Shown here: one piece after another, positions 17,694 to 31,436 of the stretch
Layout: every line of letters starts with the position of its first letter
How positions within the stretch are numbered: position 1 is the first letter of the stretch
DNA from: a virus
IMG/VR virus record: IMGVR_UViG_3300037508_001628
Location: 1 to 34,005 of that record
Strand: one strand, 5' to 3'
DNA: 34,005 nucleotides
The notes under the pieces: generated by a model
Told to the model about the DNA's origin: nothing
What the model saw: the letters and a program-made list of their open reading frames with translations, nothing else
Databases searched by the model: none
Translations under genes and position numbers: made by a program

Positions 17694-18776
17694 TTATTGT
17701 ATTGAAACATAATCATGCAAAAGAGCTCTCCAGTAAATCACGTCATTCGCGTCAAAAAGTGATTTACTCATGATAAACCCTTGAGAAGAGTTATTTACAA
17801 AAGCAGAATTTATTCCAGGTCCATTAACAGTTGCTAACCCATTAACCATCGGTGATGGATATAAATCGCCACCTAAATAAGGAGAGCCACCATTATTAAT
17901 ATCACCAACTGCAACTAATTGAGGAAAAGATAGACCAGCTATTGGAGTTACTGGAGGATTGCTATTAAACGCAGTGGCAGATGATGAATTTAAGCTTAAT
18001 ACGACTGTTCTTGAATCAGTAACACTTTTTACATAACTGTAAACTGGAGATCCTGGAACAACAGAATTTGGCAATGAATTTAATTGTATAGAACCCCATT
18101 GTCTCGGAATTCTAAGAGCCACTTCTGCCCCAACAGATAAATTGTGAGCAGCAGTTGTACTTACAGTTGTTGTACTTCCTGTTGTAATAGCATTAATAAT
18201 AGAAATACCTGGAGCATACAAAAATGGATACAAAACTTTTTTAACAGTTGCACTTGCAGGTGTGGACAAAGCTGTGTAATTAGATTGGTTTGTATTCCAA
18301 GGAATTGTAAAAGTATTTGTATCAGCTGCTACTATTTGAAATGGCATTCCACAAATCTGAGGCATACCTGTTGTACTGCTTTGATATAAATCTTGGAAAA
18401 CAACTACATCGCCTACATTAAATCCATGGCCGTTAGATGTAACAACTGCTTGTGCAGCTTTTGTCATTCCACTAATAGACAATGCTGGACCATATTGCAA
18501 AGATAATCCACCAGAAAATGTAGAAAAACCAGCAGTAGTAGAAGCTATAGCTTGCAAAGCATTTGTTCCTGACGCTGATATTTCATAAACTGATTGTTTT
18601 TGACCCATTTCAGGAAACCAAAATAAAAATGGTTTTACACCTGCATCTGTTAAGGCGTCTGCAGCTGCCGTGTAATTAATAACTTCTATATAATCAGGAA
18701 TAAACGGCAAAGCAACTACTGCGTCGGTCGCACCTGCTGTAAATTTTCCTCTTGCTAATCTTGAATATTCTGCCAT
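17694..18776 (-). CDS. Virion protein, tandem paralogue 4
   Basis: 360 residues, SD AGGAG before ATG 18776. Shares the layout of the genes at 18798 and 20348: opening MAEYSRLARGKFTAG, ALPFIPDYIEVINYT, a beta module (ITKAAQAVVTSNGHGFNVGD-type line), TGMPQICGMPFQIVAADTNT, then LSFPQLVAVGDINNGGSPYL and a C-terminal NDVIYWRALLHDY. The module is of the FCCH-like beta type. Position right after the capsid gene and tandem duplication suggest decoration, fibre or collar proteins. The precise role is unknown. Confidence 0.6.
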   Translation of the reverse strand: MAEYSRLARGKFTAGATDAVVALPFIPDYIEVINYTAAADALTDAGVKPFLFWFPEMGQKQSVYEISASGTNALQAIASTTAGFSTFSGGLSLQYGPALSISGMTKAAQAVVTSNGHGFNVGDVVVFQDLYQSSTTGMPQICGMPFQIVAADTNTFTIPWNTNQSNYTALSTPASATVKKVLYPFLYAPGISIINAITTGSTTTVSTTAAHNLSVGAEVALRIPRQWGSIQLNSLPNSVVPGSPVYSYVKSVTDSRTVVLSLNSSSATAFNSNPPVTPIAGLSFPQLVAVGDINNGGSPYLGGDLYPSPMVNGLATVNGPGINSAFVNNSSQGFIMSKSLFDANDVIYWRALLHDYVSIQ

Positions 18777-18797
18777 GCGTAAACTCCTATTAAATTT

Positions 18798-19847
18798 TTA
18801 TTCTTCGCCTTCAAAATCATGAAGTACAGCTTCCCAATATAAAACATCGTTTGCACTAAAAGCGTTTTTTGAAAAAAGCATTCCTTGAACTAATCTGTTT
18901 TTAAAAGACCCTTCAATTGAAGGACCATTTAAAGTTGGTACACCATTAAAAAGAGGACCTGGATATGTATTTCCAACAGCATATGGATTATTTCCAGTAT
19001 TTATATCACCAACACAAACAACTTGTGGGAAAGAAAGACCAATTGCATTTGAAACTGAAACGTTTGTGTTAAGTGAAGAAAAAAGAAGAGAATCGACATT
19101 TACTACAAATGATGTAAGTGATGGAATAGATTGAACAACTCCCGTTACATCATTAAATTCATATGCTGACCATTTTTCTGGAATTCTAAATTTAACTAAA
19201 CTTCCTAATGATAAGTTATGAGGACCAGTACAAGAAACTAACGTAGTGCTTCCGTTTGTAATGTTTGATACAAATGAAACACCAGGCATAAATCCATTAG
19301 GGTACAAAACTTTAGAAACAGTGCCGCTTAAAGGAGTAGATAAAGCGGTATAATTTGATTGGTTTGTGTTCCAAGGAATTGTAAAAGTGTTTGCATCAGT
19401 CACCGTTACTTGAAAAGGAATACCACAAATTTGTGGCATGCCTGTCGAACTATCCTGGTACAGATCTTGAAAACTTACATAGTCTCCTGTAATAAATCCA
19501 TGACTATTAGCTGTTACAACAGCAGGATTTGCTTTTGTAATTGCACTAACTTGTACTACAGGCCCGTATTGTAATGACAAACCTTCTTCAATAATATAAA
19601 AAACATTTGTTGATATTTGAGTTGTTAAAAGGTTCCCACCTGGCGCTGTGTATTTAGCTAATGCACTTCCTATTGGAAATTCTTTATGCCAATAATAAGA
19701 AACATCAATTGGGGCAACTGTTAAAGAGTTAACGTAACTTGTGTAATCTAAAATTTTTACGTAATCTGGGATAAATGGAAGTGGAATAAACAAATCTGTT
19801 GTGCCTGCTGTAATTTTCCCTCTTGCTGTTTTAGAATATTCTGACAT
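18798..19847 (-). CDS. Virion protein, tandem paralogue 3
   Basis: 349 residues, SD AGGGAG before ATG 19847, 10 nt after the preceding stop. Same domain order as its neighbours (MSEYSKTARGKITAG, ITKANPAVVTANSHGFITGD, TGMPQICGIPFQVTVTDANT, LSFPQVVCVGDINTG, NDVLYWEAVLHDFE). Divergence is spread along the gene, so the copies look old and under selection rather than recent duplicates. Confidence 0.6.
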   Translation of the reverse strand: MSEYSKTARGKITAGTTDLFIPLPFIPDYVKILDYTSYVNSLTVAPIDVSYYWHKEFPIGSALAKYTAPGGNLLTTQISTNVFYIIEEGLSLQYGPVVQVSAITKANPAVVTANSHGFITGDYVSFQDLYQDSSTGMPQICGIPFQVTVTDANTFTIPWNTNQSNYTALSTPLSGTVSKVLYPNGFMPGVSFVSNITNGSTTLVSCTGPHNLSLGSLVKFRIPEKWSAYEFNDVTGVVQSIPSLTSFVVNVDSLLFSSLNTNVSVSNAIGLSFPQVVCVGDINTGNNPYAVGNTYPGPLFNGVPTLNGPSIEGSFKNRLVQGMLFSKNAFSANDVLYWEAVLHDFEGEE

Positions 19848-19857
19848 TATTCACTCC

Positions 19858-20268
19858 CTAAGAAATATTTAAAAAACTTCCTAAAATGTAAGAAGTTAAA
19901 TTTTTTGGATTACTGTTTATTGCTCCAGAATTTATATCGCCAATAGCAATAATTTGAGGCACGTTTGGTCGAGATGCTGAAATGAATGGCGAACATCCTA
20001 ATGAATTTATTGAAAGAGTCACTTGATTTGTTTCCGGTATGTCAATCACATAACCTTCTAAGTTATTTAATTCCCTATCTCCATATCCAATAGGGATTAG
20101 CAATCTTATTAACTGTCCTATTACATAATTGTGATCTATAGATGTAGTAACAAGAGTTTCTTCACCGTTTACAATATTGGAAATGACAAATCTACTTGGT
20201 TTATAATACCATGGAGTAATTGGCGGGTTTGTTTGAGGAGGAACAGGTCCATAAAATATAGTAGACAT
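19858..20268 (-). CDS. N-terminally truncated tandem paralogue 2
   Basis: 136 residues corresponding only to the second half of the family: VISNIVNGEETLVTTSIDHN matches the INAITTG-TTTVSTT-HNL module and VPQIIAIGDINSGAI matches the FPQ-VGD line. The N-terminal domain and first beta module are missing, replaced by a Pro-rich start (YGPVPPQTNPPITPW). No SD is present, and the gene follows a strong terminator. TAATAT lies 6 nt before the ATG, so a leaderless start is possible. It may be a decaying copy or a specialised short form. Confidence 0.55.
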   Translation of the reverse strand: MSTIFYGPVPPQTNPPITPWYYKPSRFVISNIVNGEETLVTTSIDHNYVIGQLIRLLIPIGYGDRELNNLEGYVIDIPETNQVTLSINSLGCSPFISASRPNVPQIIAIGDINSGAINSNPKNLTSYILGSFLNIS

Positions 20269-20300
20269 AAAGTAATATTAAATAATTTATTACTTATTTA

Positions 20301-20335
20301 CTAACAAAAAGAGGGCGGAAAAATTTCCACCCTCT
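20301..20335 (-). terminator. Strong Rho-independent terminator
   Basis: On the minus strand, AGAGGGTGGAAA pairs with TTCCGCCCTCT across a short T-rich loop and is followed by TTTTTG. It lies 13 nt after the stop of the 20348 gene, ending the transcript that carries the capsid protein and its first downstream paralogue. Confidence 0.85.
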
Positions 20336-20347
20336 AAATTTATTTAT

Positions 20348-21448
20348 TTAATAGCTAAGATCGTAGTAATAAGCTTGCCATAACACAAAATCATTATTTA
20401 ATCCTGCGTATTCTGAACCTATACTAAAACCGTACCTTGAATTATTTACAAAAGCACCGTTAATAGCTGGGCCGTTTTGTATTGATGCACCGTTTACAAC
20501 AGGTGATGGATAAAGAAGACCTCCAGAATATTGGATACCCCCAGTATTTACATCTCCTACTGCAAGCATTTGTGGGAACGATAATCCATCAACGCTTGCA
20601 ACTGCTACGTTGTTTGAAAACGCAGTAAAGTTGCTAGAATCGATGTTTACTATTACAGTATCTGCATCTACTACAGAAATGACATTACCATATAACGGAC
20701 TTCCTGGAATAATTTGATTAGGAAGAGAGTTAAGCTCTACGGTTCCATATTCTTTTGGAATCCTAAAACATACTGTACTTCCGACAGACAAATTATGTGG
20801 CTGCGTTGTTGAAACTGTAGTTGTAGTTCCAAGAGTAATCGCATTAATAAACGATACTCCAGGTGAATACAAATACGGATACAAGACCTTTCTAAAAGAA
20901 GCATTTGCACCCGATAATCCACCAGTTGCAATTGCTGTGTAATTAGTTTGGTTTGTGTTCCATGGAATTGTAAAATTTAAACTATCAACTCTAGTAATTG
21001 TAAAAGGAATACCACAAATTTGCGGCATACCCGTTGATGAAGTTTGATACAATCCTTGAAAAATTACCACATCCCCACTTTGTAAACCATGTGCACTCGC
21101 ACTTGCTACTTGAGTAGTAGTACCTTTTGTCATGGTAAAAACCCTACTTCCTATATTAACTGGCCCTAACGCAAGAGCTTGAGAAGCATCAAATGTGTTG
21201 ATACCACCCGAGGTTACGTAATTTGTAGTTAAGGAAGTAGGAGTTGTTGACTGCATAATTTGAAGCATTACAGAGTCTTGAGGCAAATATGAATCCCAAA
21301 ATCCACTTGCTGTAGTACCGGCGTTACCAGTAACATAAGTAGTTCTATTTTGAAACTCAATTCTTTGAGGCTTAAAAGGTAAACTAATTACCTTTGTCGC
21401 CCCATTTGCCACATAATACCCTCTAGCCATTTTTGAATACTCTGCCAT
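20348..21448 (-). CDS. Virion protein, tandem paralogue 1
   Basis: 366 residues. An upstream in-frame start overlaps the capsid gene, but ATG 21448 (G-rich SD, 1 nt after the capsid stop) gives the same opening as its paralogues (MAEYSKMARGYYVANGATKV). Domain order matches: ISLPFKPQRIEFQNRT, HGLQSGDVVIFQGL, TGMPQICGIPFTITRVDSLN, LSFPQMLAVGDVNTG. It shares the capsid transcript and the terminator at 20301-20335, which implies high expression. Capsid decoration or fibre role is inferred only. Confidence 0.6.
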   Translation of the reverse strand: MAEYSKMARGYYVANGATKVISLPFKPQRIEFQNRTTYVTGNAGTTASGFWDSYLPQDSVMLQIMQSTTPTSLTTNYVTSGGINTFDASQALALGPVNIGSRVFTMTKGTTTQVASASAHGLQSGDVVIFQGLYQTSSTGMPQICGIPFTITRVDSLNFTIPWNTNQTNYTAIATGGLSGANASFRKVLYPYLYSPGVSFINAITLGTTTTVSTTQPHNLSVGSTVCFRIPKEYGTVELNSLPNQIIPGSPLYGNVISVVDADTVIVNIDSSNFTAFSNNVAVASVDGLSFPQMLAVGDVNTGGIQYSGGLLYPSPVVNGASIQNGPAINGAFVNNSRYGFSIGSEYAGLNNDFVLWQAYYYDLSY

Positions 21449-21449
21449 A

Positions 21450-22052
21450 TTATACCCCCAAGTTTGTTGCTCTTGTACATAGAAGGTTTCTAATAGCAGT
21501 GTCTTGTGTAATAGCTTGTGCTTGAGCAAATTTTACCGCAAGCGTAGCATTCTGAGCTAACATGCCAGAATAATACGGATCACGATAAATCAGCTGCATG
21601 CTGTATCCATCTTGGTTAATGTGAGTTAAAGCTTGCTTACCAAGGACAGTATTGTAATACACGTCATTGCTATTCAAACTTGCACCTCTTGCAACAGGAG
21701 CTTCAGAGCTTGTTAAGATTCTTATGTTGTACACAGAACCATACTCACTAGGAAGCGCTGAGCTGTTATTTGGATAATTCCAGGTAGAAATAAATCCACT
21801 ACCAGCTAAAGCATCAAAATCTGATTGCAGCTCTGTTGAGGACAGCATAAAATATGATGACCTTACAGGACCTGTACCAAATTTTAAATCCCCTTCGATA
21901 CCGCTCATAAATTTAAAAGCGTTATTTGTATCGAGAGTTGTTGCTACTAAACTAAAATCAGACACACCTAAATTAGTAGGATTGTCCGTATTGCTTCCGC
22001 CTCCTGCATTCAATTCTGATGCAGCAGAGACGATATAATCACGAAGAATTAA
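21450..22052 (-). CDS. Major capsid protein, N4-gp56 type, exon 6 (C-terminal)
   Basis: This exon encodes residues 123-322 of the spliced capsid protein. LILRDYIVSAASELNAGGGS, then SDFSLVATTLDTNNAFKFMSG, FGTGPVRSSYFMLSSTELQS, GSVYNIRILTSSEAPVARG and YYNTVLGKQALTHI form the characteristic line of N4-gp56-type major capsid proteins (RDYL-AS-NCV, GSVGN-R---SE--PV, VGK-A-G). The ATG at 22055 that opens the ORF belongs to the intron (its last base is the terminal G), so the exon starts at TTA 22052. Exons 1-6 (198+66+26+22+54+603 nt) join without a frameshift to 322 residues, normal for the family. The protein forms the icosahedral shell. Confidence 0.85.
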   Translation of the reverse strand, partial: LILRDYIVSAASELNAGGGSNTDNPTNLGVSDFSLVATTLDTNNAFKFMSGIEGDLKFGTGPVRSSYFMLSSTELQSDFDALAGSGFISTWNYPNNSSALPSEYGSVYNIRILTSSEAPVARGASLNSNDVYYNTVLGKQALTHINQDGYSMQLIYRDPYYSGMLAQNATLAVKFAQAQAITQDTAIRNLLCTRATNLGV

Positions 22053-22531
22053 CATTCTGTTACTTTAAGAGCTACATTTCCATTTTTTTAATGCTAAAGC
22101 TTTTCGAGTAGGTCTTCCTTTATCATCTTTCATAGGACCCTCTACACCAGACATCCTTGCACAAAAAGATTTTTTTCTTTTACCAGCTTCTGAATCAGGC
22201 TTTACTTTTTGAGTAACTGGAGCTTTTAAGTTTGCACCTTCAGTTCTTTTAAAAAATTTTCTGCCTTTTTCGTTTAATCCACCGGTAGGGGACTGATACT
22301 CTTTCTTTACCATTTGTTTGCTCTCTATTGACCAATCATATAATTGGCGGGTTATCATTTCTGTAACCTCACTCTCTTTCGTCAGAGTGCTCGGACTGTC
22401 GTATAGTCATTTCTGACTCCGGATCGCTCAGTCTCTCACGGTCCCTTACGGGTTCCGCCTTGTCGCCATAGCTTTTGCCTTAGGCTTCCAAGTCAATCAG
22501 ATCCAGTTTATCGAGGACTTAATTATCGTCA
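22053..22531 (-). ncRNA. Group I intron 5 (479 nt) carrying a DUF6321-like ORF
   Basis: P1: exon GAGGAT pairs with GTCCTC, giving the U.G pair at the splice site. P10: AATTAA directly 5' of the guide pairs perfectly with the 3' exon TTAATT. Core elements seen: P3 CTGGATC/GATCCGG, the shared TTGACTTGGAA line (complement at 22486-22496), P7 GACTG/CAGTC, and P8 AGTCA-GAAA-TGACT. The intron ends CAGAATG with the terminal G at 22053. All core elements precede the ORF, which sits after the P7/P8 region and ends 12 nt before the 3' splice site. Confidence 0.85.
22065..22358 (-). CDS. Intron-encoded DUF6321-like small basic protein
   Basis: 97 residues from ATG 22358 with GAGG about 8 nt upstream. 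After an unusual N-terminal extension, the body (GGLNEKGRKFFKRTEG, NLKAPVTQKVKP, RKKSFCARMSGVEGPMKD, PTRKALALKKWKC) matches the small basic phage proteins I know as DUF6321. It lies wholly inside capsid intron 5, on the sense strand. It has no LAGLIDADG, GIY-YIG or HNH signature, so it is not an obvious homing endonuclease. It may be a cargo gene trapped in the intron or an RNA-binding splicing helper (basic, with a Cys pair). The function is unknown. Confidence 0.7.
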   Translation of the reverse strand: MITRQLYDWSIESKQMVKKEYQSPTGGLNEKGRKFFKRTEGANLKAPVTQKVKPDSEAGKRKKSFCARMSGVEGPMKDDKGRPTRKALALKKWKCSS

Positions 22532-22585
22532 ATCCTCGGCTTGGCGCATTGCCACGGCTAACCTTTCGGATACCCATGCTAACAC
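22532..22585 (-). CDS. Major capsid protein exon 5 (18 codons)
   Basis: Encodes VLAWVSERLAVAMRQAED, residues 105-122, which aligns with the LNE/LAW-to-MRQTED line of N4-gp56-type capsid proteins and reads straight into LILRDY of exon 6. Its last six bases form P1 of intron 5. Its first six (GTGTTA) form P10 with mini-intron 4. Confidence 0.85.
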
Positions 22586-22621
22586 CATTTTGCGCCATGC
22601 TAAGAGGGCGTGTTATTTTGT
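22586..22621 (-). ncRNA. Coreless group I-like mini-intron 4 (36 nt)
   Basis: The 36 nt between GGT (Gly) and GTG (Val) contain an in-frame TAA and must be removed to give LQDQEG-VLAW. A 14-nt guide, TAACACGCCCTCTT, is complementary to the joined exons AAGAGGGT|GTGTTA, with one U.G exactly at the 5' splice site and perfect P10. The element ends AAAATG, as the full introns end in a terminal G. There is no room for P3-P8. TGGCGCA inside it (22591-22597) can pair with TGCGCCA in exon 5 (22542-22548). Confidence 0.75.
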
Positions 22622-22643
22622 ACCCTCTTGGTCTTGAAGTATT
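22622..22643 (-). CDS. Major capsid protein exon 4 (22 nt)
   Basis: Completes the Val codon begun in exon 3 (GT|A) and encodes ILQDQEG (to residue 104), matching the INEQV-LQDQ line of the family. Flanked by full intron 3 and mini-intron 4. Its last 8 nt form P1 of the mini-intron. Confidence 0.8.
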
Positions 22644-23410
22644 CATTCTGTTACCCCGCATTTTTGCGTGAATTGGTCATTTCTGCCAATTTCTGCGATT
22701 TTATATATAGTCGCAGATCAGACTATCGCTTCACCTTTCGGTGTCCACTCGCCTTAGTCGTTCAGGCTGTACATTTAATCATTAATCTTGTAGAATTACA
22801 TACACATCTAACAAGGGAGTTAAGATGACTAGAAGTAAATATACAAGAATTGAATATGAATCTACAAAATTGGCCTATCTTGCTGGAATTATTGATGGTG
22901 AAGGAACACTTTTCATAGGAAATTACGGAACCAAGGATAAAATCCGAGGAACGGGATTCTTTCAAACAATAATGGCGGTTACAACTACCGATGTTGTTCT
23001 CATAAATTGGCTTTATGAAAATTTTGGTGGCTGGAAATCCGAATACACTCCAAAACAGAGAGCTAAAAATTGCAAAGGACCTGTTCACAGCTGGAAATGT
23101 ACCGGAGATAGACTTACTCATTTGTGTGAATTGATTCTTCCTTTTCTTATTATCAAAAAAGATCAAGCTACCATTCTTTTGGAAATGAGAAAAACTTACT
23201 TTAATTCCGAATATCAAATCGGAAAACAAGGAGTTCAACACATTCCTGATGATGTTATCGCTAGAAGATTGGAACTTATGGATCAACTCAAAAAACTTCA
23301 TTGTAGAAACCATACTTTTAATAATTAAACACTTGCCCCTTGTTGCCCTCAATGAGGGGTTCCAAGTCAATTAGAGCAGATTTTAAACAGGCAATATCTT
23401 CAAAATTTTT
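22644..23410 (-). ncRNA. Group I intron 3 (767 nt) with antisense LAGLIDADG gene
   Basis: P1: exon AACAGGT pairs with GCCTGTT (U.G at the splice site). P10: the guide's GAAGATATT pairs with the 3' exon AATACTTC apart from one bulge. Core: TTGACTTGGAA line (complement at 23360-23370), P3 TCTGCTC/GAGTGGA, P7 GACTA/TAGTC, P8 CACC-GAAA-GGTG. The segment CTGAACGACTAAG is identical to intron 1. The endonuclease ORF fills the loop between the P4-P6 and P7 regions on the opposite strand. The intron ends CAGAATG. Confidence 0.85.
22825..23328 (+). CDS. LAGLIDADG homing endonuclease, antisense within intron 3
   Basis: 167 residues. A single LAGLIDADG motif is clear (LAYLAGIIDGEGTL, about residues 17-30), so the enzyme probably acts as a homodimer; the two Asp/Glu-rich helices at the motif form the interface and metal site. 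VTTTDVVLINWLYENFGG and LPFLIIKKDQATILLEM fit the family fold. ATG 22825 has a strong SD (AAGGGAG). It is encoded on the strand opposite to the capsid transcript, so it needs its own promoter and is not made from the intron RNA. It would cleave an intronless capsid gene to spread intron 3. Confidence 0.9.
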   Translation: MTRSKYTRIEYESTKLAYLAGIIDGEGTLFIGNYGTKDKIRGTGFFQTIMAVTTTDVVLINWLYENFGGWKSEYTPKQRAKNCKGPVHSWKCTGDRLTHLCELILPFLIIKKDQATILLEMRKTYFNSEYQIGKQGVQHIPDDVIARRLELMDQLKKLHCRNHTFNN

Positions 23411-23436
23411 ACCTGTTCGTTGATAACACAGCCAGT
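23411..23436 (-). CDS. Major capsid protein exon 3 (26 nt)
   Basis: Encodes TGCVINEQ plus the first two bases of Val, matching the GTYVVLNEQV stretch of N4-gp56-type capsid proteins. Its first 7 nt (ACTGGCT) form P10 with mini-intron 2, its GTTATCAAC pairs with the end of that mini-intron, and its last 7 nt form P1 of intron 3. Confidence 0.8.
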
Positions 23437-23497
23437 CAATTCGTTATCAACTTATTCGGCACTGGCTAACTTAAGCAGCTAAGCGTAAGTTATTTAG
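23437..23497 (-). ncRNA. Coreless group I-like mini-intron 2 (61 nt)
   Basis: The 61 nt between exon 2 (FFG) and exon 3 (TGCVINEQ) must be removed to keep the capsid frame; stops occur within. Guide AGCCAGTGCCGAA is complementary to the joined exons TTCGGT|ACTGGCT, with U.G at the splice site and a perfect 7-bp P10. It ends GAATTG (terminal G). GTTGATAAC (23443-23451) pairs perfectly with exon 3 GTTATCAAC (23419-23427), placing the 3' splice site in a 15-nt loop. AACTTA/TAAGTT forms a hairpin inside the P1 loop. No P3-P8 core fits. Confidence 0.75.
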
Positions 23498-23563
23498 ACC
23501 GAAAAACGCCATTTGAGCATCAATGATGTCTCTCTGTGGCACTTGAGCTGGTGGATCAATACC
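23498..23563 (-). CDS. Major capsid protein exon 2 (22 codons)
   Basis: Encodes GIDPPAQVPQRDIIDAQMAFFG, residues 67-88; this fits the G--PP-Q--- ---IDAK--FYG stretch after the N-terminal arm in this capsid family. Bounded by intron 1 (ends G) and mini-intron 2; TTCGGT at its end forms P1 of the mini-intron. Confidence 0.85.
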
Positions 23564-23785
23564 CTATCTATTACTTTCGGACCACCAATCCTACTGACCA
23601 TTTCTGGAGGGATTCCCTCTTCGGAGATTCCTCACGGTCTTTCTTTCCATACACCGTGTCTAGACTATTGCATGCTCTTTCGAGCCCATCGCGCTTAGTC
23701 GTTCAGCCTAGCATTATCCTTGGCCCTCGTCACCTTGTCAGGCTTCCGAGTCAATCAGCGACAGTTTTATAACTCCAGTTTATTT
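23564..23785 (-). ncRNA. Group I intron 1 (222 nt, no ORF)
   Basis: P1: exon TAACTCT pairs with GGAGTTA (U.G at the splice site); a short P10 (ACT with GGT) is possible. Core: TTGACTCGGAA (complement at 23744-23754), P3 GTCGC/GCGAT, P7 GACTA/TAGTC, P8 GCTC-GAAA-GAGC, then P9-type hairpins to the terminal G at 23564. CTGAACGACTAAG is shared with intron 3. Removal joins GNS to GIDPP in frame. At 222 nt it is a compact, complete ribozyme. Confidence 0.88.
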
Positions 23786-23983
23786 AGAGTTACCAAGTTG
23801 TACAGTTGGAGGTACTAAAGCTCTTGGTCGCATAAAGCGGCAAGTAGTTCCCCCGTTTGCTGGCATTGACACCTTGTCACATACCAAAATATAATTCATA
23901 CTTGGAGTTGGAACATATAACATTGCAGGCGCTAAGCTCTGAAGTATCATAGGACCAAGTTGCCCCGTAGTTGTAATAGACAT
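23786..23983 (-). CDS. Major capsid protein exon 1 (66 codons)
   Basis: MSITTTGQLGPMILQSLAPA, then CDKVSMPANGGTTCRFMRPR and ALVPPTVQLGNS form the N-terminal arm of N4-gp56-type capsid proteins (FRRY--LPPATVPLGE-G). ATG 23983 has SD AAGGAG 8 nt upstream. Unspliced reading would add one Lys and stop, leaving a 67-residue fragment, so capsid synthesis depends on splicing. Confidence 0.85.
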
Positions 23984-29183: not shown

Positions 29184-29423
29184 TTATCTAAAGGCACTTT
29201 CTTTGAAACCCAAAGTCTTGCCAAAATTAACATCATCACCGTAGTATTTAGGTATCTTATGCGTCATCACAGCATAACGAAGTGCGTCGCAATTTTTCAC
29301 TATAATTCCATTGGCAATCATGTTTCCATTCTTTTTTGTCGCTAAACAATAAACATCTTGTTGTTTGTCCAGTCGTTTTATAGATTTAATTTTTACGCCT
29401 ACTACTTCCACATTTTTTTCCAC
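29184..29423 (-). CDS. Terminase large subunit C-part: intein C-half plus C-extein
   Basis: 79 residues from GTG 29423 (AAGGTAAGG 4 nt upstream). Residues 1-44 are the C-terminal intein half: block F DVYCLATKKNGNMIANG and block G IIVKN ending in the catalytic Asn; the penultimate residue is Lys instead of the usual His, and block F has Cys where Asp is common. The +1 residue is Cys, and the C-extein CDALRYAVMTHK (35 residues in all) completes the nuclease motif of the terminase. It is in the same frame as the N-part but separated by the HNH ORF. Confidence 0.85.
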   Translation of the reverse strand: MEKNVEVVGVKIKSIKRLDKQQDVYCLATKKNGNMIANGIIVKNCDALRYAVMTHKIPKYYGDDVNFGKTLGFKESAFR

Positions 29424-29973
29424 AAAACCTTACCTTTAAATATTTATTTCTCATAAACAGAGATCCACATTTTTCACATTTAATTTCAATATCATCTAAG
29501 CCTGAATCTCTTCTCCATTTAGATTTACATTTATTAGAACAAAATCTAGTTCTTTTTAAATCTATTTTATCAATTTCAAATTCTTTTTTACATTGATCAC
29601 ATATTGATTTTTCTGGGCTATTTCTTGCAAATGTTTGTTTCGCATGCTTCGAGTGCCACTCTTTTCCTTCTTCGCTTGCGTGCCACGCTTTTGTCAAATG
29701 TTGAATTTTACTCATTCTTTCGGCAGCCCATTTTTTTCTTTCAATAGTCATATGCATGGATAAGTGATCTTTTTCAGTTAGTTTTTTCAAATTAGAAATG
29801 TCATTATTAGATTTGTTCCCATCAATATGATGAATATGATACCCATCTTCAACAGGACCATAATGATATTCATATACCCATCTATGAGCACGAATTCTTG
29901 GATAATCTGTTGAAATCCAATAACCTGTTTCTTTATCTAAATAGAATTTTTTTCCGAAATGTTCCTGGTGCAT
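29386..29973 (-). CDS. HNH homing endonuclease inserted in the intein
   Basis: 195 residues in a different frame from both terminase parts, overlapping the N-part by 37 nt and the C-part by 38 nt. The HNH core is clear: RAHRWVYEYHYGPVEDGYHI, HHIDGNKSNNDISNLKKLT, then EKDHLSMH. The C-terminal part has two zinc-binding motifs (CDQCKKEF ... FCSNKC and CEKCGSLF ... FCGKKC). No SD precedes ATG 29973, so it may be made by frameshift, coupling or not at all from that ATG. Probably drives homing of the intein-HNH cassette into intein-free terminase genes. Confidence 0.85.
   Translation of the reverse strand: MHQEHFGKKFYLDKETGYWISTDYPRIRAHRWVYEYHYGPVEDGYHIHHIDGNKSNNDISNLKKLTEKDHLSMHMTIERKKWAAERMSKIQHLTKAWHASEEGKEWHSKHAKQTFARNSPEKSICDQCKKEFEIDKIDLKRTRFCSNKCKSKWRRDSGLDDIEIKCEKCGSLFMRNKYLKVRFCGKKCGSSRRKN
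29412..29421 (-). repeat. 10-bp direct repeat, right flank of HNH cassette
   Basis: Minus-strand GGAAAAAAAT, identical to the copy at 29946-29955. The two copies are 534 bp apart (178 codons), so loss of one copy plus the intervening DNA joins the intein halves in frame (EKN|VEVVG). The A7 run is also a possible slippage site. Confidence 0.6.
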
Positions 29974-31436
29974 GTTAGTACTATATCAGATAGTGTCAAT
30001 TGTTGCAATTCGATATAGCCTCTTTTTGTAAGTATTTGATGATCTCCAGTTGCGACTAGTTTTTTCCCATCTTCCAGCTCAAGTTCATAGACAATTGCAT
30101 TCTCACGTGTCAATGAAGGATTGTAAGCAATATCTCTTTCGATCATACCCATTTCAACATCATAACTTAACATGGGCAAATCATGAGCAAATTTATCAAT
30201 TACTCTCATACCAAGAGGTGTCATTATTTCGGTTCCGTAAGCTACACAAGCATGATCATTCTTTTTTAAAGGAGCATCTAGTCCCATTTCAGCTTTACGA
30301 GAATCCCACACATAACCTTCGATTTCTCTAATCAAGTTTTTACAGTTATTCATAATGAAAAGATTTCCTTTTTGCATTTCAGAAGACATGTAGCTAATTC
30401 CATCAAGAACATCATTATTTGCATCAACAGGTTTTAATCCACGTCTTCGTAATTCCTCTTTAAAAGAAGCTGCGCTAGGATCAACATAAATCCCCCTAAC
30501 GCCATAAGGCTCAAGAAAATCTTTAATATCATCTGCAAACTCACTATGGGTTTTACCCTTTTTTGTTACCGAAATATCCCAATAATATTCTTTTTCTACC
30601 CATCGCATAGGGCCTGATTGTTCATACCTGCCTGTGCTTATTCCTATTATAACGCAAGCAAATGCATTGGTAAATCCCACATCAATTCCAGCAATGAAAT
30701 ATTCTGCTGCTCTGGGGGCAGTTTTAACCACATAGATGTCTCGATCAAAGAAGTCAAATATAGCGCCATCAGCCAAACACCAAATACCAAGATAATTACG
30801 TTTATAAAAAAGACCACTAAGAGAGTTGCGGATACGATTTTTATACTCTTCTGGAACATATGGGTTATCATCAAGCGTGTAATGAAGCTCATAATAGTTT
30901 GGGTCTCCTTGCTCAGCTTTATCTATCCATGTTTTTAGAATGTGGTTAGGATGAGAGGGGTTCATTGAAGCAAATAACATAGAATAGGGCTTAGAAAGCC
31001 TAGTGTCTATCATGTTGATAACAGATTCCGAATAAAGAGTCATTTCATCACAGTAGCACAAAGACATAGTAGACCCTTGAATAGCTCCGATTGCACCATC
31101 GTCTTTAACTCCAAGAGTTTTTATTACTTTATCTTTGAACAATAACTCTCTGTCTCCTTTTCTCCACATACAAAAAGGACGCCATACCGAAAAAGGATCG
31201 GGAGTTCCTTTTGGAGGTCTTGTTAGTAAAAGCGATATGGCGTTATTAAAAATGGTAGTAGAGGTTTTACCAATCATCCAGATATCAGAATCTGAACAAT
31301 CATCAACGGCATCCATAAACCTAAAAAGAGTCCCAACAGTCTTACCTGATCGAACAGATCCGTGAGCTAAATTTATTTTCTTATTCGCCTCAAGAATAAA
31401 CTGTAATTGCTTTGGAGCCAATGGTTGCTGTATCAT
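29937..31436 (-). CDS. Terminase large subunit N-part with intein N-half
   Basis: 499 residues: 396 of terminase and 103 of intein. ATPase: Walker A GSVRSGKT (about 26-33) and Walker B LCYCDE. Nuclease: FIAGIDVGF (first Asp), GIYVDPSA (second Asp), and KNDHA, where the gene is cut. At CVAYGTEIMT the intein begins (block A, Cys1); LVATGDHQILTKRG is block B (TxxH). The frame stops after TRNISEKNSI, so the C-terminal intein half must come from another ORF. Spliced terminase would be 431 residues, normal for the family. The start at ATG 31436 has no SD and lies at the predicted transcription start (leaderless). Confidence 0.88.
   Translation of the reverse strand: MIQQPLAPKQLQFILEANKKINLAHGSVRSGKTVGTLFRFMDAVDDCSDSDIWMIGKTSTTIFNNAISLLLTRPPKGTPDPFSVWRPFCMWRKGDRELLFKDKVIKTLGVKDDGAIGAIQGSTMSLCYCDEMTLYSESVINMIDTRLSKPYSMLFASMNPSHPNHILKTWIDKAEQGDPNYYELHYTLDDNPYVPEEYKNRIRNSLSGLFYKRNYLGIWCLADGAIFDFFDRDIYVVKTAPRAAEYFIAGIDVGFTNAFACVIIGISTGRYEQSGPMRWVEKEYYWDISVTKKGKTHSEFADDIKDFLEPYGVRGIYVDPSAASFKEELRRRGLKPVDANNDVLDGISYMSSEMQKGNLFIMNNCKNLIREIEGYVWDSRKAEMGLDAPLKKNDHACVAYGTEIMTPLGMRVIDKFAHDLPMLSYDVEMGMIERDIAYNPSLTRENAIVYELELEDGKKLVATGDHQILTKRGYIELQQLTLSDIVLTCTRNISEKNSI
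29946..29955 (-). repeat. 10-bp direct repeat, left flank of HNH cassette
   Basis: Minus-strand GGAAAAAAAT in the last codons of the intein N-half (S-EKN). In the N-part frame it reads A_AAA_AAT, a possible -1 slippery heptamer that would lead into the HNH frame. Pairs with the copy at 29412-29421. Confidence 0.6.

Follow-up and report, generated by a model that had tools for sequence, protein, structure and literature searches.

The major capsid protein gene of the virus studied here contains two putative introns, of 36 and 61 nt, each of which carries a guide to both of its exons but lacks a catalytic core of its own. In the relatives that were scanned, whenever a gene has such a coreless insert, a short exon and then a full group I intron follow downstream. 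The boundaries of these elements, their guides, the helix that tethers them to the flank of the downstream intron, this partner rule, the covariation, the intact joined gene and the selection acting on it are shown by the sequences. The explanation that fits these data best, and which we consider likely in the absence of RNA or biochemical evidence, is that the core of the partner intron splices both introns in cis.

The capsid gene and its two coreless inserts

The window, by which we mean the whole stretch of DNA analysed, is the 34,005-nt IMG/VR virus record IMGVR_UViG_3300037508_001628, in which the order of the terminase, portal and capsid genes is ordinary. Spliced protein-to-DNA alignment of the window with a 323-residue intronless capsid homologue (L002) as the query identified five inserts in the capsid gene, of 222, 61, 767, 36 and 479 nt (Table 1). 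Joining the exons without them yields one intact, full-length capsid protein; intronless members of the family, on viral contigs, encode ~322 residues. A first search of phage genomes (INPHARED) returned no relatives. Comparison of the gene with its relatives gave a dN of about 0.1 and a dS that ranged from 1.6 to saturation (dN/dS 0.04-0.06 where computable), and the capsid gene is thus under strong purifying selection. Elsewhere on the minus strand, the terminase large subunit (29386-31436) appears to continue into an intein-like splicing domain, which lies below the Pfam cut-off and is followed by an HNH ORF; alignment of terminase relatives displayed no large interruptions in the matches. 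Three similar structural proteins of 349-393 amino acids are located near each other at 17694-21529 (minus strand), one of which weakly resembles a major tail protein.

Table 1. Positions in the window of the capsid gene, its introns and their pairing elements
Feature	Position	Strand	Basis or detail
Major capsid protein gene, six exons and five introns	21450..23983	-	Spliced alignment
Intron 1, 222 nt, solo full group I, after codon 66	23564..23785	-	Spliced alignment; in core alignment
61-nt coreless intron, codon 88, between AFFG and TGCV	23437..23497	-	Spliced alignment
Guide of 61-mer, TAGCCAGT (P10) + GCCGAA (P1)	23455..23468	-	
Tether helix of 61-mer, 5' strand GTTGATAACG	23442..23451	-	Pairs with 23428..23419
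Tether helix of 61-mer, 3' strand TGTTATCAAC, exon 3	23419..23428	-	Ends 8 nt before 5' splice site of intron 3
Intron 3, 767 nt, full group I	22644..23410	-	Predicted partner of 61-mer
Homing-endonuclease-like ORF inside intron 3	22825..23328	+	PHROG 5046, E 4e-20
36-nt coreless intron, codon 104, between QDQEG and VLAW	22586..22621	-	Spliced alignment and guide
5' exon strand of 36-mer P1, AAGAGGGT	22622..22629	-	Guide search, fold
Guide of 36-mer, TAACAC (P10) + GCCCTCTT (P1)	22602..22615	-	
Tether helix of 36-mer, 5' strand TGGCGCA	22591..22597	-	
3' exon strand of 36-mer P10, GTGTTA	22580..22585	-	
Tether helix of 36-mer, 3' strand TGCGCCA, exon 5	22542..22548	-	Ends 10 nt before 5' splice site of intron 5
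Intron 5, 479 nt, full group I, after codon 122	22053..22531	-	Predicted core donor for 36-mer
DUF6321 ORF inside intron 5	22065..22358	-	PF19846, E 6e-27

An initial annotation had described 36 nt with an in-frame TAA between QDQEG and VLAWVS, a contiguous 14-nt guide that matches both exons with a wobble at the 5' cut, and a 7-bp helix to exon 5 recalling the exon pairing of the 61-nt element; all of these claims held. The boundaries were set by the group I convention, with U before the cut and G as the last intron base, which gives the exon AAGAGGGT, the intron ACAAAATAACACGCCCTCTTAGCATGGCGCAAAATG and the exon GTGTTAGC. The guide, TAACACGCCCTCTT, forms a P1 of eight pairs with U.G at the cut (AAGAGGGU/GCCCUCUU as RNA) and a P10 of six pairs (GUGUUA/UAACAC), and none of 1000 shuffles equalled this pairing. 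The minimum-energy fold of 22640..22495 contains P1 of the 36-mer, the tether helix and P1 of the partner intron together (z = -3.98). Only 16 nt remain after the guide, and the 36-mer has neither a P3-P8 core nor a P7 guanosine site of its own. It therefore fails the core requirement of group I introns and is not filed as one, but acts like their P1-P10 part. The anatomy of the 61-mer, with its P1, P10 and tether helix, is the same. The claim that the 36-mer is among the shortest introns also held, yet relatives reach 29-30 nt. The sequence recurs on a contig of a second metagenome (3300042388), with 100% identity across 12,213 bases. At codon 104 a different virus (L095) likewise has an insert, a homologue of 33 nt, within a layout of four inserts that is the same as that of introns 2 to 5 in the window. 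In L095 this 33-mer is paired with a 204-nt intron, which makes it the smallest of the pairs.

Two other readings of these inserts were discarded. A frame at 22676-22500, open throughout, would make the 36-mer plain coding sequence within a real gene; relatives use the other frame for QDQEGVLAWVS, and this reading was therefore rejected. The proposal that the 61-mer and the full introns have a common 5' end (RLAA-stop) was wrong, RLAA being exon 3 in another frame. The homing-endonuclease-like ORF of intron 3, which runs antisense to both the intron and the capsid gene, had no match in a Pfam search.

Coreless introns and their partners in relatives

Two scans in which short inserts were not a criterion of selection provided 107 distinct capsid loci, the base of the partner statistics, and 24 of these contained coreless inserts. 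Loci from a pattern search, which were picked for their short inserts, were left out of these statistics and included in the tree; two pattern matches were dropped as chance (L108 and L116), and two further loci were dropped for being too truncated (L085 and L099). In total 45 distinct coreless introns were found, on dozens of independent contigs from two collections, at three sites, codons 88, 92 and 104. The short inserts measure 29-66, 32-44 and 30-56 nt at these sites, respectively, and are often out of frame. The recurrence of these inserts across relatives, together with the layout in L095, indicates that they are elements with a history rather than accidents. At codon 104 in some relatives the insert extends to between 325 and 976 nt, with the same guide at its 3' end and an ORF in the P1 loop, which mostly encodes a LAGLIDADG homing endonuclease (in L129 and L149 a two-motif LAGLIDADG protein, PF00961). 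The presence of these ORFs in other phages makes independent mobility of the coreless elements probable, although this is inferred from sequence alone. Two of the seven relatives from bacterial genome bins (L201 and L203) sit in chlamydial bins, a weak hint as to the host.

A full group I intron lies a short exon downstream in all 24 carriers of coreless inserts, at codons 93-146, compared with 8 of the 83 other loci (Fisher 2e-17). Coreless inserts were gained or lost 30 times on the tree. Supported branches gave 13 independent contrasts, and the partner changed together with the insert in about 12 of these and against it in none (p 0.0005). In a second collection (genome_contigs, bacterial genome bins) all five new coreless loci again had a full intron downstream. 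Consensus folding of 20 short full introns revealed a canonical P3-P9 core with the P7 GACUA/UAGUC. Rfam searches, at the gathering threshold and at E up to 10, matched neither the 36-mer nor the full introns of the family; as the Rfam group I model misses even the latter, the core rests on our own consensus fold, and the lack of an Rfam match is only weak evidence. The assignment of intron 5 as the predicted core donor for the 36-mer is based on the core structure of its short homologues in the consensus fold, and on the finding that every carrier of a coreless insert at site 104 has a site-122 intron, except for variants at 117/120.

The group I boundary, with U before the intron and G as its last base, fits all 45 coreless introns within the small boundary freedom allowed; where two synonymous placements exist, the one that satisfies U...G was chosen. 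Positions -1 to -6 of P1 are paired in 45/45, with U.G at the 5' cut, while each of positions +1 to +4 of P10 is paired in at least 44/45 and at least four P10 pairs form in 43/45. It should be noted that such counts are inflated because guides and helices were found by complementarity, and the fair tests are those that compare with shuffles or with other positions, or that compare different partners. Compensatory changes are evident at P1 -4, where C-G alternates with T-A (exon TTTTGG versus TTTCGG, with the guide CCAAAA versus CCGAAA), and at P1 -2 of site 92, where A-T becomes G-C in L199. At P10 +3 all four Watson-Crick pairs occur (T-A, A-T and C-G, plus G-C in L200), the 3' exons ACTGG, ACAGG, ACCGG and ACGGG being matched by the guides CCAGT, CCTGT, CCGGT and CCCGT, respectively.

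In the tether helix, H1, the tail of the coreless element, after the guide, pairs with exon sequence directly before the partner's 5' splice site. The position of H1 was again chosen by complementarity. When 240 nt of the coding sequence downstream are searched, the best helix found anywhere ends 5-14 nt before that splice site in 30 of the 45 introns, as against two expected. H1 follows the 5' splice site of the partner across 26-170 nt of exon. Thus, among elements at site 88 the tail differs with the position of the partner (97, 101, 120, 122 or 145) and in each case matches the partner-adjacent exon; the helix is GTTGATNAN/NTNATCAAC when the partner is at 97, contains ACTT/AAGT when it is at 101, and is CTTGTCTCA/TGAGACAAG when it is at 122. 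For partners at 120 and 145 there are only 5-6 pairs, but these covary. Roughly one H1 in three is short or ambiguous, namely with partners at 99, 120 and 145 and in several site-104 members.

Read-through ends of the introns

Translation of the unspliced message from the upstream exon to the first stop revealed a further signature. The sequence [AV]A-stop, mostly LAA, terminates the read-through product in 51 of the 56 first introns after codon 50, in 16 of 17 later coreless introns and in 18 of 19 later solo full introns, and in none of the 12 introns at or before codon 50. In the other two frames AA-stop occurred in 1 of 302 cases, and all four alanine codons are used. Some of the tails closely resemble ssrA tags (NEYALLAAA and SAEDSSDYAYRLAA). 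Within the window the 61-mer conforms to the pattern (GLNNLRLAA-stop), while the 36-mer, which ends in GTK-stop, is an exception. On the simple reading, the tag is a C-terminal degron through which truncated capsid protein would be destroyed; degradation is inferred, as is the protease, which may be ClpXP or another. No report of intron-encoded ssrA-like ends was found in the open-access literature searched.

The tag is present in 43/45 coreless introns and in only 3/45 partner introns. As partners alone lack it, a message from which the coreless intron has been removed while the partner remains would rarely be met by ribosomes, and the contrast between untagged partners and tagged solo introns suggests that the pair is one splicing unit.

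A proposed shared core, its rivals and known systems

We propose that the 36-mer is a non-autonomous, coreless intron of group I type, which would supply its own P1, P10, both splice sites and terminal G. H1 would join its tail to the exon upstream of intron 5, generating a three-way junction with both P1 helices; such a junction among the coreless P1, H1 and the partner P1 is expected because the partner P1 occupies the last 6-8 exon bases. The core of the partner would accept the coreless P1 for one round, with guanosine attacking after the U and the exon then attacking after the last G, and would take up its own P1 in another such round; two introns would thus be removed by a single ribozyme. 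The location of H1 at the 5' flank of the partner, with the resulting junction, is the main reason for thinking that the partner core acts in cis. Splicing itself, the identity of the catalyst, action with the partner still in place and the order of events are all inferred without RNA data. With the same reservation, the suggestion in the initial annotation of trans-acting or shared-core splicing is supported, the comparative evidence favouring the shared-core form, and the partners can now be named as intron 5 for the 36-mer and intron 3 for the 61-mer.

The strongest rival, although an unlikely one, is removal in trans: full introns, once excised from the same or another gene, would cut out the coreless ones. 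Engineered group I ribozymes do excise short segments in trans (PMC4094466), and the untagged partner introns would also fit a sequence in which the partner leaves first and then acts in trans. Furthermore, the partner rule is silent on how the partner acts, and a trans mechanism thus remains possible in the strict sense. Against this, the partner is always immediately downstream, and the tracking of its 5' splice site by H1 would be purposeless once the partner had gone.

It could also be argued that the coreless elements are minimal group I introns that splice autonomously. Such a claim has been made for the rDNA introns of Phialophora, which comprise 63-75 nt with P1, P10, a middle helix to the 3' exon and a small P7, and which reportedly self-splice with the aid of flanking RNA (PMC3160393). 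The likeness is striking: the introns of Phialophora and lichen fungi (63-78 nt; PMC3160393) share with the 36-mer P1, P10 and a pairing between mid-intron and 3' exon (here TGGCGCA/TGCGCCA), other core helices being absent, and a 67-nt fungal intron reportedly splices without a known partner (PMC3160393). The fungal type, however, is credited with a P7 and with autonomous splicing, ends in U, and has neither an ORF nor a reported partner (PMC3160393), whereas the coreless introns interrupt a protein gene, have G as their last base, occur paired with a full intron and in some cases contain LAGLIDADG ORFs. In the 36-mer there is no small P7, nor room for one in the 16 nt after the guide, and the tail pairs with exon 5 instead. 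These differences, and the strict dependence on a downstream full intron, make this rival very unlikely.

A further rival holds that the capsid gene is broken or misassembled and that the inserts are what remains of dead or deleted introns; this would account for an in-frame stop and frame shifts within an essential gene, and misassembly or a dead copy had been offered in the initial annotation as readings that would refute it. Both are rejected, and the remnant hypothesis is all but excluded, by the dozens of independent contigs in two collections, the identical second contig, the low dN/dS, the partner rule, the conserved covarying guides and the selection on the read-through frame. Programmed translational bypassing (hopping) can be set aside with similar confidence: short inserts that start near a stop codon are bypassed in phage genes such as T4 gene 60, but here the take-off codon GGT does not match the landing site, with ATG/GTG at the far end of the insert; ribosomes terminate there, as the tags imply; and the U...G boundaries, P1/P10 guides and partner rule would be left unexplained.

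With the shared core as the preferred reading, the relation to known systems is as follows. Coreless introns have in common with the td-like group I introns of phages (P7 GACUA/UAGUC, terminal G) a P1 with U.G, P10, the terminal G and homing endonucleases, and the same chemistry is assumed; unlike them, they have no P3-P9 core, measure 29-66 nt, depend on a neighbouring intron and are tethered by a helix to its 5' flank. By mechanism, the closest systems are engineered trans-excision-splicing ribozymes and spliceozymes (PMC4094466), which set a precedent for the proposed chemistry; in these, a group I core removes a foreign internal segment and joins its flanks via P1 and P10. There the guide is on the ribozyme, whereas in the natural coreless introns it resides in the excised segment. 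The group III introns of Euglena chloroplasts are likewise streamlined, having lost the core of their own class, which they must borrow; these, however, derive from group II, and coreless introns are of group I type. To our knowledge, no natural ribozyme splices an intron other than its own, no natural intron is known to consist of a guide only and borrow its core from the adjacent intron, and no report of core-sharing introns was found in the open-access literature searched. Coreless introns would thus be a new kind if the shared-core reading, itself an inference, is correct; the novelty would be smaller if the 36-mer self-splices.

A bolder reading, towards which we lean by a narrow margin, is that these elements form a natural class of mobile, non-autonomous introns that use a tethered shared core, the pair being a unit with an ssrA-like degron. 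If true, the borrowing of a core is the type of step by which the spliceosome is thought to have arisen from group II introns, seen here in group I and in a system small enough for test-tube study; minimum intron size would become a matter of guide length, engineered spliceozymes would have a natural counterpart, introns would be seen to parasitize other introns, and ssrA-like ends, with a degron in the read-through frame, would be a new way for genes to tolerate introns. A tentative extension of this reading is that, in some relatives, segments of 1 nt and 4 nt are removed by means of the guide of another intron.

At codon 81 of the capsid gene, one extra G (L129, L158 and L189) or UAAG (L149) is inserted after AUCGAU. 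In the first three of these loci a conserved base loss at codon 95 (AAT AR CAG for AAT GAR CAG), for which no conserved guide was found, keeps the frame broken even without the extra G. The guide of the codon-69 full intron matches the codon-81 junction (P1 + P10, covarying) better than it does its own 3' exon, and these four loci may display the natural excision of 1-4 nt.
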